In this document: positions 151 through 4,229 of the stretch, one piece after another
How positions within the stretch are numbered: position 1 is the first letter of the stretch
Layout of the letters: every line of letters starts with the position of its first letter
Source: an uncultured bacterium
Lineage (GTDB): Bacteria; Cyanobacteriota; Vampirovibrionia; Gastranaerophilales; Gastranaerophilaceae
NCBI GenBank assembly: GCA_902797985.1
Contig: CADBUZ010000006.1
Coordinates: 1-49,571, forward strand
Length of the DNA: 49,571 nt
Direction of reading: 5' to 3'
The notes under the pieces: generated by a model
Seen by the model: only the letters and a program-made list of their open reading frames with translations
Databases searched by the model: none
What the model was told of the DNA's origin: nothing
Program-made: the position numbers and the translations under genes

Positions 151-1107
151 ATGACAAAACTAACAAAAAACACTACTTTTAAAACATTGACACATTTATG
201 GTTAAAAGAAAAACAGGCTATGGTTACCCAATCAACTTATGCCGGATTTTTACTTATTGTTGAAAATCATCTGATACCGTATTTTGGGACACAAAAAATA
301 TGCGATATAACAGAACCAAAAATTCAGGAATTTATTTTTTATCTTTTTAATAATGGACGACTTGATAATTCCGGCGGTCTTACAGTAAAAACTATAAGGG
401 ATATCATTCTTGTCTTAAGGCTAACATTAAATTTTGCATATAAATCAAGAGTAATTGCCGCATTAAATTGGGATTTAATAGACTACCCAAAAGATTCGGC
501 AATTAAAAAAGTTATAGCATTATCCAAGGACGAAGAACAAATGCTGATACAAGCAATTTATTTGAATTTAACAAGAAAATCTGTTGGAATATTACTGACG
601 CTATTTACCGGATTGAGGATAGGAGAACTTTGCGGTTTACAAATGTCAGATATATCTTTGTGCAATAATACTATAACTGTTAACAAAACTGTACAAAGAA
701 TTTATGATAAATTAAAGAAAACATCATATATTCACATCGGCGCACCCAAAACAAAAAGTTCGCAAAGAACTATTCCCGTACCATCATTATTAATGAATAT
801 TATAAAAAAGTTTTATACAAATAATCCTAATCACTATTTTTTAACAGGGAAATCAACCCCGACAGAACCAAGAGTTTATAGACAATTTTTTGCAAGATTT
901 GTGAAAAAACATGAACTAACACCGGTAAAATTTCATGAACTTCGTCATACATTTGCAATTAGAGCAATAGAAATTTCGGATTTTGATATAAAATCCCTGT
1001 CAGAAATATTAGGACACAAAAATGTATCATTCACTTTAAATGTTTACGGAAGAGCAAACCTTCAACAAAAAATCAAATGTATGAATTTGTTGAATGATTT
1101 GCTGTAA
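151..1107 (+). CDS. Tyrosine recombinase / phage-type integrase
   Basis: Site-specific DNA recombinase of 318 aa. It would cut and rejoin attachment sites to integrate or excise the element it sits on. An N-terminal SAM-like core-binding domain (about residues 10-110) precedes the catalytic domain. All catalytic residues are visible: R156 in TGLRIGEL, a Lys near 200-202, H262 and R265 in HELRHTF, H289 in LGHKN and the nucleophile Y299 in NVYGRA. I chose the ATG at 151 because AAGGAGG lies 9 bases upstream; the frame stays open to position 40 but without a ribosome site. It is followed at once by a strong hairpin and converges on the zinc-ribbon gene. It looks intact. Its own att site is not recognisable near the window edge. 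Confidence 0.95.
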   Translation: MTKLTKNTTFKTLTHLWLKEKQAMVTQSTYAGFLLIVENHLIPYFGTQKICDITEPKIQEFIFYLFNNGRLDNSGGLTVKTIRDIILVLRLTLNFAYKSRVIAALNWDLIDYPKDSAIKKVIALSKDEEQMLIQAIYLNLTRKSVGILLTLFTGLRIGELCGLQMSDISLCNNTITVNKTVQRIYDKLKKTSYIHIGAPKTKSSQRTIPVPSLLMNIIKKFYTNNPNHYFLTGKSTPTEPRVYRQFFARFVKKHELTPVKFHELRHTFAIRAIEISDFDIKSLSEILGHKNVSFTLNVYGRANLQQKIKCMNLLNDLL

Positions 1108-1139
1108 AGGTAAAACACTCTTTCAAGAGTGTTTTACCT
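1108..1139. terminator. Bidirectional terminator between convergent genes
   Basis: A perfect 15-bp inverted repeat (AGGTAAAACACTCTT and its complement) with a 2-nt loop lies between the integrase stop and the end of the zinc-ribbon gene, whose stop codon it contains. It has A/T tracts in both directions, so it can end both transcripts. Confidence 0.8.
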
Positions 1140-1352
1140 GCCAAATTTTTTAAGTGTTTGTTTCAACTTTTTAAGACTTTTTTCAACTTTTTGCGTTTCC
1201 CTATCAAACTTACTTGTGTCAGCATTTATTTTGATATCATCACCACAATGCTTACAATGCAAAACGGGATTCGTTCTTAATTTTTTGACAGTTGTTTTTA
1301 GTTTATTATCGCAATTTGGACATGGTATATCTATTTCGATTTCATCAAACAT
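1134..1352 (-). CDS. Small zinc-ribbon protein
   Basis: A 72-aa protein with two cysteine pairs, CPNC (C11, C14) and CKHC (C33, C36), which form a classic zinc-ribbon knuckle, followed by a lysine-rich helical tail (about 48-72). The function is not known. Such ribbons often bind nucleic acid or dock on another protein. The start is supported by AAGGAG 8 nt upstream. It is the second gene of a two-gene operon behind the GIY-YIG-like gene (gap 11 bp), and both are divergent from the ImmR-like repressor, so it is probably expressed only when that repressor is removed. Confidence 0.8.
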   Translation of the reverse strand: MFDEIEIDIPCPNCDNKLKTTVKKLRTNPVLHCKHCGDDIKINADTSKFDRETQKVEKSLKKLKQTLKKFGR

Positions 1353-1363
1353 TACTTTTCTCC

Positions 1364-1681
1364 TTATTCTTTTGTATAACTTTTTATTTCATATGCATAT
1401 ACGTATATGGTAGAATCATCTCCACCGCCAGGTCCACCATGTGTTCCTAAATTGTCTATAAGAGCATTTTCTACCTCTCTTGCAGAAGAGTCACTATAAC
1501 ATTTTGCATATATCCAACGCCCATTTCCTTTGTTAACTTCGTGTTCTTGAAATAATCTGCGTTCCGGATCGTTTGCAATTCCTACATACCAAGAACTGTA
1601 ATTAGAACCTAATGTATTTGAAGTAATATAGCTTTTAATTTCATCATATGCACTTTGTTTTGTTAATGTGTTTAATGCCAT
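1364..1681 (-). CDS. GIY-YIG-like small nuclease family protein
   Basis: A 105-aa single-domain protein. WYVGI (31-35) matches the GIY-YIG start strand in style. It is followed by DPERRLF (Arg at 41), a conserved AREVE segment with a candidate metal-binding Glu (E69 or E71), and a glycine-rich GGPGGGD (82-88) before a final YVYAYE strand. I recognise this layout from unnamed small proteins in bacteria and phages; the GIY-YIG assignment rests on pattern and has not been tested. AAGGAG lies 8 nt upstream of the ATG. It is the first gene of the operon that leaves the divergent promoter at 1812-1840, directly under the predicted repressor control. It could be an element-encoded endonuclease or a defence effector. 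Confidence 0.65.
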   Translation of the reverse strand: MALNTLTKQSAYDEIKSYITSNTLGSNYSSWYVGIANDPERRLFQEHEVNKGNGRWIYAKCYSDSSAREVENALIDNLGTHGGPGGGDDSTIYVYAYEIKSYTKE

Positions 1682-1754
1682 TGCTTTGTCTCCTTTTTGA
1701 CTTTTTACTGTATCTCTGCCACAATTCTTGCATCACCTTTCCACTCACCTCCTC

Positions 1755-1783
1755 TTGCTTTTCATAAGTTTTTCCTTTATACT
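1755..1783 (+). promoter_or_regulatory. Predicted sigma70 promoter of the ImmR-like gene
   Basis: TTGCTT (1755-1760), a 17-nt spacer, and TATACT (1778-1783). Transcription would begin near 1790, inside operator 1, so binding there would block its own synthesis. Confidence 0.55.
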
Positions 1784-1784
1784 T

Positions 1785-1807
1785 ATGTAACAAGAAATTT
1801 GTGACAT
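1785..1807. promoter_or_regulatory. Operator 1 of the divergent switch
   Basis: Half-sites ATGTAACA and TGTGACAT around a 7-nt spacer (AGAAATT), total 23 bp, with one mismatch from a perfect dyad. It covers the predicted start of the rightward transcript and lies just downstream of the leftward start. Confidence 0.7.
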
Positions 1808-1811
1808 GAAT

Positions 1812-1840
1812 AATGTAACACTTTTTTTGTTACATGTCAA
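1812..1840 (-). promoter_or_regulatory. Predicted sigma70 promoter of the GIY-YIG operon
   Basis: On the minus strand TTGACA (1840-1835), exactly 17 nt, then TACATT (1817-1812). The -35 is consensus. Operator 2 covers the whole spacer, so a bound repressor would exclude RNA polymerase. Confidence 0.6.
1813..1835. promoter_or_regulatory. Operator 2 of the divergent switch
   Basis: A perfect dyad: ATGTAACA, 7-nt spacer CTTTTTT, TGTTACAT. It has the same half-site and spacing as operator 1, with centres 28 bp apart, and lies over the leftward promoter. Confidence 0.8.
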
Positions 1841-1851
1841 GAGGTATTATT

Positions 1852-2175
1852 ATGGAAAATTCAAAAAGTGCTATAGGACTAAGAATAAAAGAACTTAGAG
1901 AATCAATTGGACTTACACAAACGGAATTAGCTCAAAAATCGAAACTAGCAAGAACAGTAATTCCCATGATTGAAAACGGCCAACGTTATCCGTCAGAAAA
2001 AACTCTTTCTAAAATTGTGGAAGCATTGGGAGTTTCTATGGATGATATTTATACAGGCGAAGTAAGAGAGCAAGCAATTAAAAATTTACAAGAATGTGCA
2101 AGTAATTTTACTAAAAATGCGACAACAGATGAAATTATCAAAGTTTATAGGAAGATGATAAAAAATGACAACTAA
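1852..2175 (+). CDS. XRE-family repressor, ImmR-like
   Basis: A 107-aa Cro/CI-type helix-turn-helix repressor. The HTH covers about residues 6-60 (LRIKELRESIGLTQTELAQ, then a recognition helix near ARTVIPMIENGQ). The C-terminal tail is helical. I chose the ATG at 1852 because AGAGGT precedes it by 7 nt; the upstream in-frame ATG at 1834 lies within operator 2. Its stop overlaps the next gene by 11 bp. XRE repressors paired with a downstream ImmA-type peptidase control mobile elements such as ICEBs1, where the peptidase cuts the repressor. By that analogy this protein should bind both operators upstream and repress the GIY-YIG operon and itself. Confidence 0.85.
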   Translation: MENSKSAIGLRIKELRESIGLTQTELAQKSKLARTVIPMIENGQRYPSEKTLSKIVEALGVSMDDIYTGEVREQAIKNLQECASNFTKNATTDEIIKVYRKMIKNDN

Positions 2176-3061
2176 TCCCTATTTTCTTCCAAATGTAGAT
2201 GTATCTAATTATGCAACCAGATTGTTATCCGATACAATTGGGACTGAAACAATACCAATAGATGTATTTGAAATATTGGAATATATTGAAGAATTAGGCA
2301 TTACTTGTAAGTTTACAGATAAAAAATTTGAAGATAATTCTGAATATGCAATTACAGAACTATCAAAAGACGGTCAACGGCGAATTTATATAAATTCAAA
2401 ATTTTACGGAAGATCATTTCAAGATATAACAGATATTACAAAAAGAAGGCATTGTCGGTTTACGCTTGCACATGAGTTAGGCCATTGTTTTATTCCTGCT
2501 CATGCTGATTATTTAACTCAGCAGTTAATGCTAGATAAAAGCAATTTACATGCTAAGAAATATTCATTTACTAAAGAATATGAAGCAAATACTTTTGCCT
2601 CTGAATTATTAATTCCATCAAGTACTATTGGTAAAATAGAACAGTACGGTTCGGATTTTAAACAGATAGTCGAAAATATATCGAAAAAATACGATACCTC
2701 TTTCACAGCAACCGCTTTAAAAGTTGTAAAACTTCTCAAAGATATTAACTGTATATGTATCCAATTTGATGCTGATACTAAACAAATAATACAGTATAAA
2801 TACTCTGAAGCCTTTGGAAGTTACAAAAAGGGTTTATTTTTTAATCGTGATTCAAAAATATACGGTGGTTCTGTTACAAGTTCATTGATGAAAGGTAATG
2901 ATAAATCTTATTATCAAAAATATAATGATCCAAAAGATTGGTTTCCAAACTTTTATGGTAATGATAGTGCATATCTTAATGAATGGGCTTTTAAGGTTGG
3001 CCCAAGTATAATTACTTTTTTAGAACTTGTTGACACAAGTGAATATGCTTTATATTTTTAA
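2165..3061 (+). CDS. ImmA/IrrE-type zinc metallopeptidase (antirepressor)
   Basis: A 298-aa protein with the HEXXH zinc motif HELGH (H103, E104, H107) and a downstream EYEANTFASELLIP segment that supplies the third ligand (E140), the ImmA/IrrE signature. About 140 further residues carry no domain I recognise and may sense a signal. In known pairs this peptidase cleaves the partner XRE repressor to induce the element. It is translationally coupled to the repressor (11-bp overlap). There is no signal peptide, so it is cytoplasmic. It looks intact. Confidence 0.9.
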   Translation: MTTNPYFLPNVDVSNYATRLLSDTIGTETIPIDVFEILEYIEELGITCKFTDKKFEDNSEYAITELSKDGQRRIYINSKFYGRSFQDITDITKRRHCRFTLAHELGHCFIPAHADYLTQQLMLDKSNLHAKKYSFTKEYEANTFASELLIPSSTIGKIEQYGSDFKQIVENISKKYDTSFTATALKVVKLLKDINCICIQFDADTKQIIQYKYSEAFGSYKKGLFFNRDSKIYGGSVTSSLMKGNDKSYYQKYNDPKDWFPNFYGNDSAYLNEWAFKVGPSIITFLELVDTSEYALYF

Positions 3062-3105
3062 TCTCCATCTCATAGTTAATTACATCTTGTTCTGTATGTT
3101 AAATT

Positions 3106-3249
3106 ACACCAAGCGGAGCTTGGTTAGGTTCGAGCGGGAGTGAGCTGAGTGCGAAGGTTTAATCTTTGAAACAAACGAAGTTTGTAAAAAGATAAACCGA
3201 AGACACGTTATAAGCGAACGACCAAGACAGTCCCATCTTCGACAATAAA
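3106..3249 (+). repeat. Mini-hairpin repeat, copy A
   Basis: A gene-free stretch, richer in G+C than its surroundings and packed with small dyads that have GNA triloops: ACCAAGC-GGA-GCTTGGT (3108-3124) and ACAAAC-GAA-GTTTGT (3171-3185). It ends in CAAGACAGTCCC...CGACAA, a phrase that recurs at 8249-8270. Open frames here are not gene-like. No coding gene is seen between 3062 and 3526. Confidence 0.7.
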
Positions 3250-3510: not shown

Positions 3511-3535
3511 ATGTAAGTTGTGGTTTCTACCCTAA
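3511..3535 (+). repeat. GTAGGTTGGG repeat, copy 1 (degenerate)
   Basis: GTAAGTTGTGGTTTCTACC followed by TAATAGTTTT. It overlaps the stop codon of the HEPN gene, so the last residues of that protein are encoded by the repeat. Compare the copies near 4277, 7997, 8723 and 8887. Confidence 0.5.
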
Positions 3536-3925
3536 TAGTTTTGATAAATATTCTTTTAGCGAATTCAAAAAATATTTTGTTTCTTCTATCGAAATAATTA
3601 AATCTTCTTCTGTTGGAGTATATGTGAAGTCGTAGTCAGATTTTTGTCTGTTTGAAAAGGACTCTCTGTATATAGCATATATTTTTGTGTCAAAAATATT
3701 TTCATCATAAATATATTTTTTATTAAACCAGCCCATAAGTTGTGAATGTTTGGAAGTTATAAAATTTTCTTTGTATGCTAAAGCACTAACCATATAAAAA
3801 ATTGAATAATATAATCTGTTTTGGCAAGCATCATAATGTTTATCTTTAAAATTTGATAAAGCCGATAACATAGCTTCATCAGATTTTTGAATTGCTTTAT
3901 TTATCAATTCAAGATTATACTCCAT
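3527..3925 (-). CDS. HEPN-domain toxin of a HEPN/MNT pair (UPF0332-like)
   Basis: A 132-aa all-helical HEPN domain. The core NRLYYSIFYMVSALA (about 36-50), SKHSQL and the later RQKSDYDF (about 93-100) match the UPF0332-type HEPN proteins that pair with MNT nucleotidyltransferases. Known members act as toxins or RNases that the partner neutralises, in some systems by adding AMP to a tyrosine. It is encoded directly after the MNT gene with an 11-bp overlap, the usual order for translational coupling. The C-terminus ends within a dispersed repeat (3511-3535), so the original tail may have been replaced. Confidence 0.85.
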   Translation of the reverse strand: MEYNLELINKAIQKSDEAMLSALSNFKDKHYDACQNRLYYSIFYMVSALAYKENFITSKHSQLMGWFNKKYIYDENIFDTKIYAIYRESFSNRQKSDYDFTYTPTEEDLIISIEETKYFLNSLKEYLSKLLG

Positions 3926-4229
3926 AAAAGACTCCTTTGTTTACAACTTGATTATGGTATATCTCATTTTGCATTAAGTCTTTTTTTGACATTGGGTGTA
4001 AATCTAAAGAAATATCTAATTCTAATTCTAATTCTCCAATAATAGTCCATAGTTGTAATCTGTCATTATGATTAAGTGTATTCTCAAATATTGCAACAAT
4101 ATCAATATCACTTGTTTCAGTTTGAGTATTATTTGCGTACGAACCATATAAATAAATTCCATTAAAATTAGAAAAAACTGACTTTATTTTATTATTTAGT
4201 TTATTTATTATATATGCAATATCCTTCAT
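3915..4229 (-). CDS. MNT nucleotidyltransferase antitoxin
   Basis: A 104-aa minimal nucleotidyltransferase of the polymerase-beta fold. The signature GSYANNTQTETSDIDI gives G29, S30, D41 and D43; a third acidic residue is probably D72 or D76 in the ELDISLDLH strand. In HEPN/MNT modules this enzyme modifies and silences the HEPN toxin. It is first of the pair on the minus strand and overlaps the HEPN start. There is no other domain and no signal peptide. The module is complete and looks functional. Confidence 0.88.
   Translation of the reverse strand: MKDIAYIINKLNNKIKSVFSNFNGIYLYGSYANNTQTETSDIDIVAIFENTLNHNDRLQLWTIIGELELELDISLDLHPMSKKDLMQNEIYHNQVVNKGVFYGV

Follow-up and report, generated by a model that had tools for sequence, protein, structure and literature searches.

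In bacteria, antiviral immunity can be turned on after DNA damage by a gene pair that encodes a repressor and a protease. A pair composed of a small helix-turn-helix (HTH) repressor and an M78 metallopeptidase is found near the left end of the window, i.e. the whole 49,571-nucleotide stretch of Gastranaerophilaceae DNA analysed here. The pair is transcribed away from two small genes, and the question is what kind of switch it forms and what the divergent genes do. The locus is well supported as a divergent, operator-controlled repressor/peptidase switch. We consider it fairly probable that this switch is of the CapH–CapP type, probably responds to DNA damage and derepresses a candidate nuclease effector operon. 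The switch is of a known kind; the operon it controls is new.

Operators and promoters

The 170-bp intergenic region (1682–1851) carries two 23-bp dyads. Operator 1 (1785–1807, ATGTAACA-AGAAATT-TGTgACAT) matches in seven of eight pairs, with one mismatch, and operator 2 (1813–1835, ATGTAACA-CTTTTTT-TGTTACAT) is a perfect dyad, with all eight pairs matching. Each has a 7-nt spacer; their starts are 28 bp apart and 5 bp separate them. A sequence-only reading of this DNA had described twin dyads with these positions, spacers and start-to-start distance, all of which hold, but the half-site it assigned to every arm is common to three only, because one of the four arms has a mismatch. None of 3,000 dinucleotide shuffles of the intergenic region produced two dyads that agree in arm and spacer. 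In the 1.86-Mb genome to which the window belongs, operators 1 and 2 are the only places that fit the dyad pattern with at most one mismatch (all others need two), and the repressor is therefore probably local. All four arms, down to the mismatched G of dyad 1, are unchanged in the related locus L063 of genome G042, where the DNA is 86% identical. There, operator 2 is identical throughout, and the spacer of dyad 1 and its adjoining bases are altered.

The leftward promoter, which serves the divergent operon (1812–1840, minus strand), reads TTGACA-N17-TACATT, with hexamers at 1840–1835 and 1817–1812. The rightward promoter of the repressor and peptidase genes (1754–1782, plus strand) reads TTGCTT-N17-TATACT, with hexamers at 1754–1759 and 1777–1782. 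Both sequences are present as the earlier reading had given them. Such hexamers are weak evidence by themselves (36 found versus 28 expected over 5 kb); in L063 the hexamers of both promoters are kept, although the rightward spacer has diverged. The starts predicted from the −10 boxes, at about 1805 for the leftward and about 1789 for the rightward transcript, both fall within dyad 1. Operator 2 lies across the leftward −35/−10 core and in the leader of the repressor gene. The earlier placement of operator 2 at the leftward promoter and of operator 1 at the rightward start is thus correct, but operator 1 also covers the leftward start, so the two operators are not divided one to each promoter as had been proposed. 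Because both starts are in dyad 1 and dyad 2 fills the leftward −35/−10 region, a bound repressor would shut off both promoters, and dyad 1 would serve the two of them. Putative operators, judged at the level of sequence, are thereby located at the controlled promoter, a feature of CapH–CapP modules. The sequence-only reading had gone on to suggest that the whole logic of derepression can be read from the DNA. This is right for the divergent, operator-controlled layout, while binding and cleavage are proposed from the protein family.

The leader of the leftward transcript (1682–1806, minus strand) folds well (z −4.3) into a structure seen in both sequences, in which the operator 1 transcript base-pairs with a conserved Shine-Dalgarno-like AAGAGGAGG. 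No covariation was found in this structure and no conserved ORF after it, and an Rfam search gave no match above the gathering score.

Repressor and peptidase

The repressor (1852–2175, plus strand, 107 residues, Pfam HTH_3 3.9e-16) is CapH-like. It matches the PADLOC capH model over residues 3–104 at 5.6e-11, which is full-length but modest and no better than its matches to other HTH models (HTH_VI scores better). Its gene overlaps by 11 nt that of a 298-residue M78 metallopeptidase with a C-terminal domain (2165–3061, plus strand). An HTH protein of about 100–120 residues followed directly by an M78 peptidase of about 290–300 residues is the arrangement of a CapH–CapP module. The gene order had been recognised before; the peptidase, taken then for an ImmA-type enzyme, is more specifically CapP-like.

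The match of the peptidase to PADLOC capP (4.8e-28, model positions 14–229 of 242) is not proof alone, as values of 1e-15 or better with this model are common among the M78 proteins of the phylum, most of which match it over no more than the peptidase domain. For this reason, the C-terminal part was tested by alignment and profiles. The peptidase carries HELGH at residues 103–107, the HExxH motif, and aligns over residues 13–280, i.e. over both domains, with a profile of CapP-like plasmid proteins (hhalign, 99.6%, E 2e-23). The profile of these plasmid relatives finds CapP itself (PDB id: 7t5t) at 1.5e-46, and its next PDB match, IrrE, is far behind (9.5e-10) and covers the peptidase domain only. 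W259, E273 and F298 are invariant in the alignment with 13 plasmid homologues, and the C-terminal W259 and E273 are invariant in 15 sequences. The CapP identity is only 21–26%, and a PADLOC scan with the C-terminal 116 residues alone gave no match. The predicted structure is unusable (pLDDT 35.2). A search of viral contigs found no CapP. Judged by these profiles and alignments, the pair is CapP-type and not a phage-type ImmR/ImmA pair.

The divergent operon

The putatively controlled genes, which the sequence-only reading had left unnamed, form a leftward operon. Its first gene (1364–1681, minus strand) encodes a 105-residue GIY-YIG-like protein and the second (1134–1352, minus strand) a 72-residue zinc-ribbon protein with two CxxC motifs. 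The former scores barely above the Pfam GIY-YIG gathering cut-off (25.6 versus 22.6 bits), which places it in the superfamily. A catalytic set assigned by eye (Y32-V-G, R41/R42 and E69/E71) is present and conserved, although the Tyr of the first motif is indistinct, and nuclease activity may be expected from family membership. Its predicted structure is unusable (pLDDT 43.5). The zinc-ribbon matches of the second protein stay below every cut-off. Neither protein convincingly matches a known immune family, and no PADLOC or other known defence model covers the GIY-YIG-like protein. The interval between the switch and the hairpin described below holds these two genes only, so there is no CD-NTase of the kind that defines CBASS, and Pfam, PHROGs and NCBIfam recognise no xis or transfer gene.

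A strong hairpin at 1108–1139 (z −5.5 and −6.1), in which L063 has A-T for the outer G-C pair, lies between the zinc-ribbon gene and a convergent integrase gene. It is a probable two-way terminator that parts the operon from the integrase. All four genes of the module look to be under purifying selection, given the low dN/dS between the window and L063 (GIY-YIG 0.15, zinc ribbon 0.06, repressor 0.05, peptidase 0.14).

Relatives of the GIY-YIG-like protein are few. Among 386 genomes of the phylum there are only two sister copies; phage and plasmid records gave none, and sequence and alignment searches of viral contigs were equally negative. So far the operon has turned up in three genomes only, which all share one recently moved module, and for this reason its link to the CapH–CapP-type pair is without independent replication.

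The island and its cargo slot

The module is carried by an island whose tyrosine integrase (151–1107, plus strand, Pfam Phage_integrase 7.7e-23) has counterparts of 88–98% identity in nine further genomes of the family. In several of them it adjoins type I restriction genes, among them a second hsdS in inverted orientation, and in seven of the nine it occurs without a close relative of this peptidase. The first idea of a 3-kb mini integrative element was rejected, as the integrase belongs to this larger type I restriction island. Positions 1–125 of the window (minus strand) are the 5' end of another hsdS gene, a second copy in inverted orientation (NVPKLRFKGYND). The contig break there probably reflects inversion of the hsdS region, as inverted copies in G136 and G127 suggest.

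The right end of the island (3056–3108, ending GTTAAATTACA) is conserved; homology to six genomes (G183, G042, G145, G127, G088 and G092) stops at 3108. Between the integrase and this end, three of these genomes (G145, G088 and G092) carry Hachiman-like genes and G127 carries PDC-S53, while the cargo in the window, G042 and G183 is the CapH–CapP-type pair with its GIY-YIG/zinc-ribbon operon. In G068, where the island end is not on the contig, a helicase gene is located on the same side of the integrase. The CapH–CapP/GIY-YIG module is 86–99% identical across genera. At silent sites the integrase of the window is more diverged from that of G042 (dS 1.77) than the cargo is (0.30–0.75), as expected if the cargo is exchanged.

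Two further observations concern the surroundings. Just beyond the island end (3527–4229, minus strand) there is a HEPN and nucleotidyltransferase gene pair of the HEPN/MNT type. Elsewhere in the same genome (C20), locus L042 (1730–6398) contains IetA-IetS-like and dGTPase genes, and since these precede a related (81%) island right end, L042 may hold a second defence cargo of this type.

Relatives of the switch on plasmids

Twenty plasmid loci with relatives of the peptidase were read, of which L112 is unannotated. In 14 of the remaining 19 the peptidase gene is divergent from a known or proposed immune operon: CBASS in nine, Bub (multiubiquitin with ThiF or E2) in four and Pycsar in one. Small uncharacterised genes take this position in the other five. 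Of 16 CapH-type regions on plasmids, 14 have a TTGAC box upstream of capH, nine of them at the same spacing; several of these regions are close relatives, so the 16 do not count as independent cases. In L097, L101 and L104 an operator-like dyad starts just past the leftward −10. Dyads without a mismatch, again of 8-7-8 geometry but with different arm sequences, occur in L097 and L114.

At L103, L105 and L109 the CapP-like peptidase is accompanied by a sigma-factor-like or unnamed gene instead of CapH; these peptidases face Pycsar, Bub and CBASS operons. The uncharacterised small genes that face plasmid CapH–CapP pairs (L106 2347–2844, L108 2836–3099 and the divergent genes of L100, L107 and L116) include DUF3892, with a 72-aa-class protein in L106, and small Acinetobacter ORFs. 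All five are candidates for further immune operons.

Proposed mechanism and alternatives

According to passages of PMC13373217 and PMC10233336, CapP is activated by single-stranded DNA and cleaves CapH. By analogy with this family, the repressor of an undisturbed cell would occupy both dyads and repress the leftward operon as well as its own. DNA damage or phage replication would produce single-stranded DNA and thereby activate the peptidase, which would cleave the repressor and open both promoters. The small GIY-YIG-like protein and its zinc-ribbon partner would then be made and would probably act as a nuclease in defence or abortive infection, a role suggested by the cargo slot and by the CapH–CapP family.

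An M78 and HTH pair that adjoins an integrase on a moving island could instead be an immunity switch of a mobile element, of the ImmR-ImmA kind known from ICEBs1 and prophages, in which derepression turns on excision or transfer genes. We find this rather improbable: the integrase is outside the controlled operon, convergent to it and behind the terminator-like hairpin, it mostly occurs apart from close relatives of the peptidase, the divergent operon has no recognised xis or transfer gene, and the similarity of the peptidase to CapP extends through its C-terminal domain. The overlap of the HTH and M78 genes would also suit a toxin-antitoxin-like unit kept for island stability, with the HTH protein as antitoxin and the M78 or GIY-YIG protein as toxin, and an Xre-peptidase protein does belong to the toxin-antitoxin-like defence system PD-lambda-2 (PMC9519451). 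Such a unit is quite unlikely here, as the candidate effector is divergent and not co-directional, and most of the annotated plasmid relatives of the peptidase are beside immune operons.

The high identity of the module across genera, next to an integrase far more diverged from that of G042 at silent sites, leaves a slim chance that the GIY-YIG-like protein assists movement of the module between islands, as a homing-type or repair accessory, and is not a defence effector. Against this, its gene is placed under a CapH–CapP-type switch, and the slot is one that candidate defence genes occupy elsewhere. Returning to the CapH–CapP-type switch with its candidate effector operon, we regard as evenly balanced the more specific proposal that the GIY-YIG-like and zinc-ribbon pair is an undescribed DNA-damage-inducible defence system in a swappable slot of a type I restriction island.

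CapH–CapP modules serve as markers of immune operons, and finding one before an uncharacterised two-gene operon in a defence-type slot makes the small protein pair a concrete immune candidate that is cheap to test. It also extends this type of control to Gastranaerophilales, here a gut-type bacterium; the literature searched held no report of it in this order.

Comparison with known systems

The closest known system is CapH and CapP, the controllers of CBASS and Bub operons (Lau et al. 2022, as cited in PMC13373217). Regulators of this type control several kinds of immune operon, according to a passage of the same article. The present locus shares with them an HTH protein of about 107 residues and, directly after it, an M78 peptidase that has about 300 residues and a C-terminal domain, the divergence from the controlled operon and the operator-like dyad downstream of the leftward −10. 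Unlike theirs, it faces a GIY-YIG-like/zinc-ribbon operon and not CBASS, Bub or Pycsar, an additional segment precedes the HExxH helix of its peptidase, and its operator arms are ATGTAACA instead of CTCGACAT-like.

ImmR/ImmA of ICEBs1 and TnSmu1 also combine an HTH repressor with an M78 peptidase on a mobile element, and derepression after DNA damage, proposed here by analogy, would be a further shared feature. That pair controls excision and transfer genes, whereas the integrase here is outside the controlled operon. DdrO/IrrE (PprI) of Deinococcus is likewise an HTH repressor with an M78 peptidase, and the cleavage known there may by analogy occur here, but it controls a DNA-damage regulon and its profile match is limited to the peptidase domain. 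With CMoRE (PD-T4-3) and SNIPE, known defence effectors whose GIY-YIG nuclease domain acts against phage DNA (PMC12923530, PMC13190303), the locus shares the GIY-YIG domain. These proteins have added sensing or membrane domains; in contrast, the protein described here has 105 residues, a separate zinc-ribbon partner and inducible-looking control.
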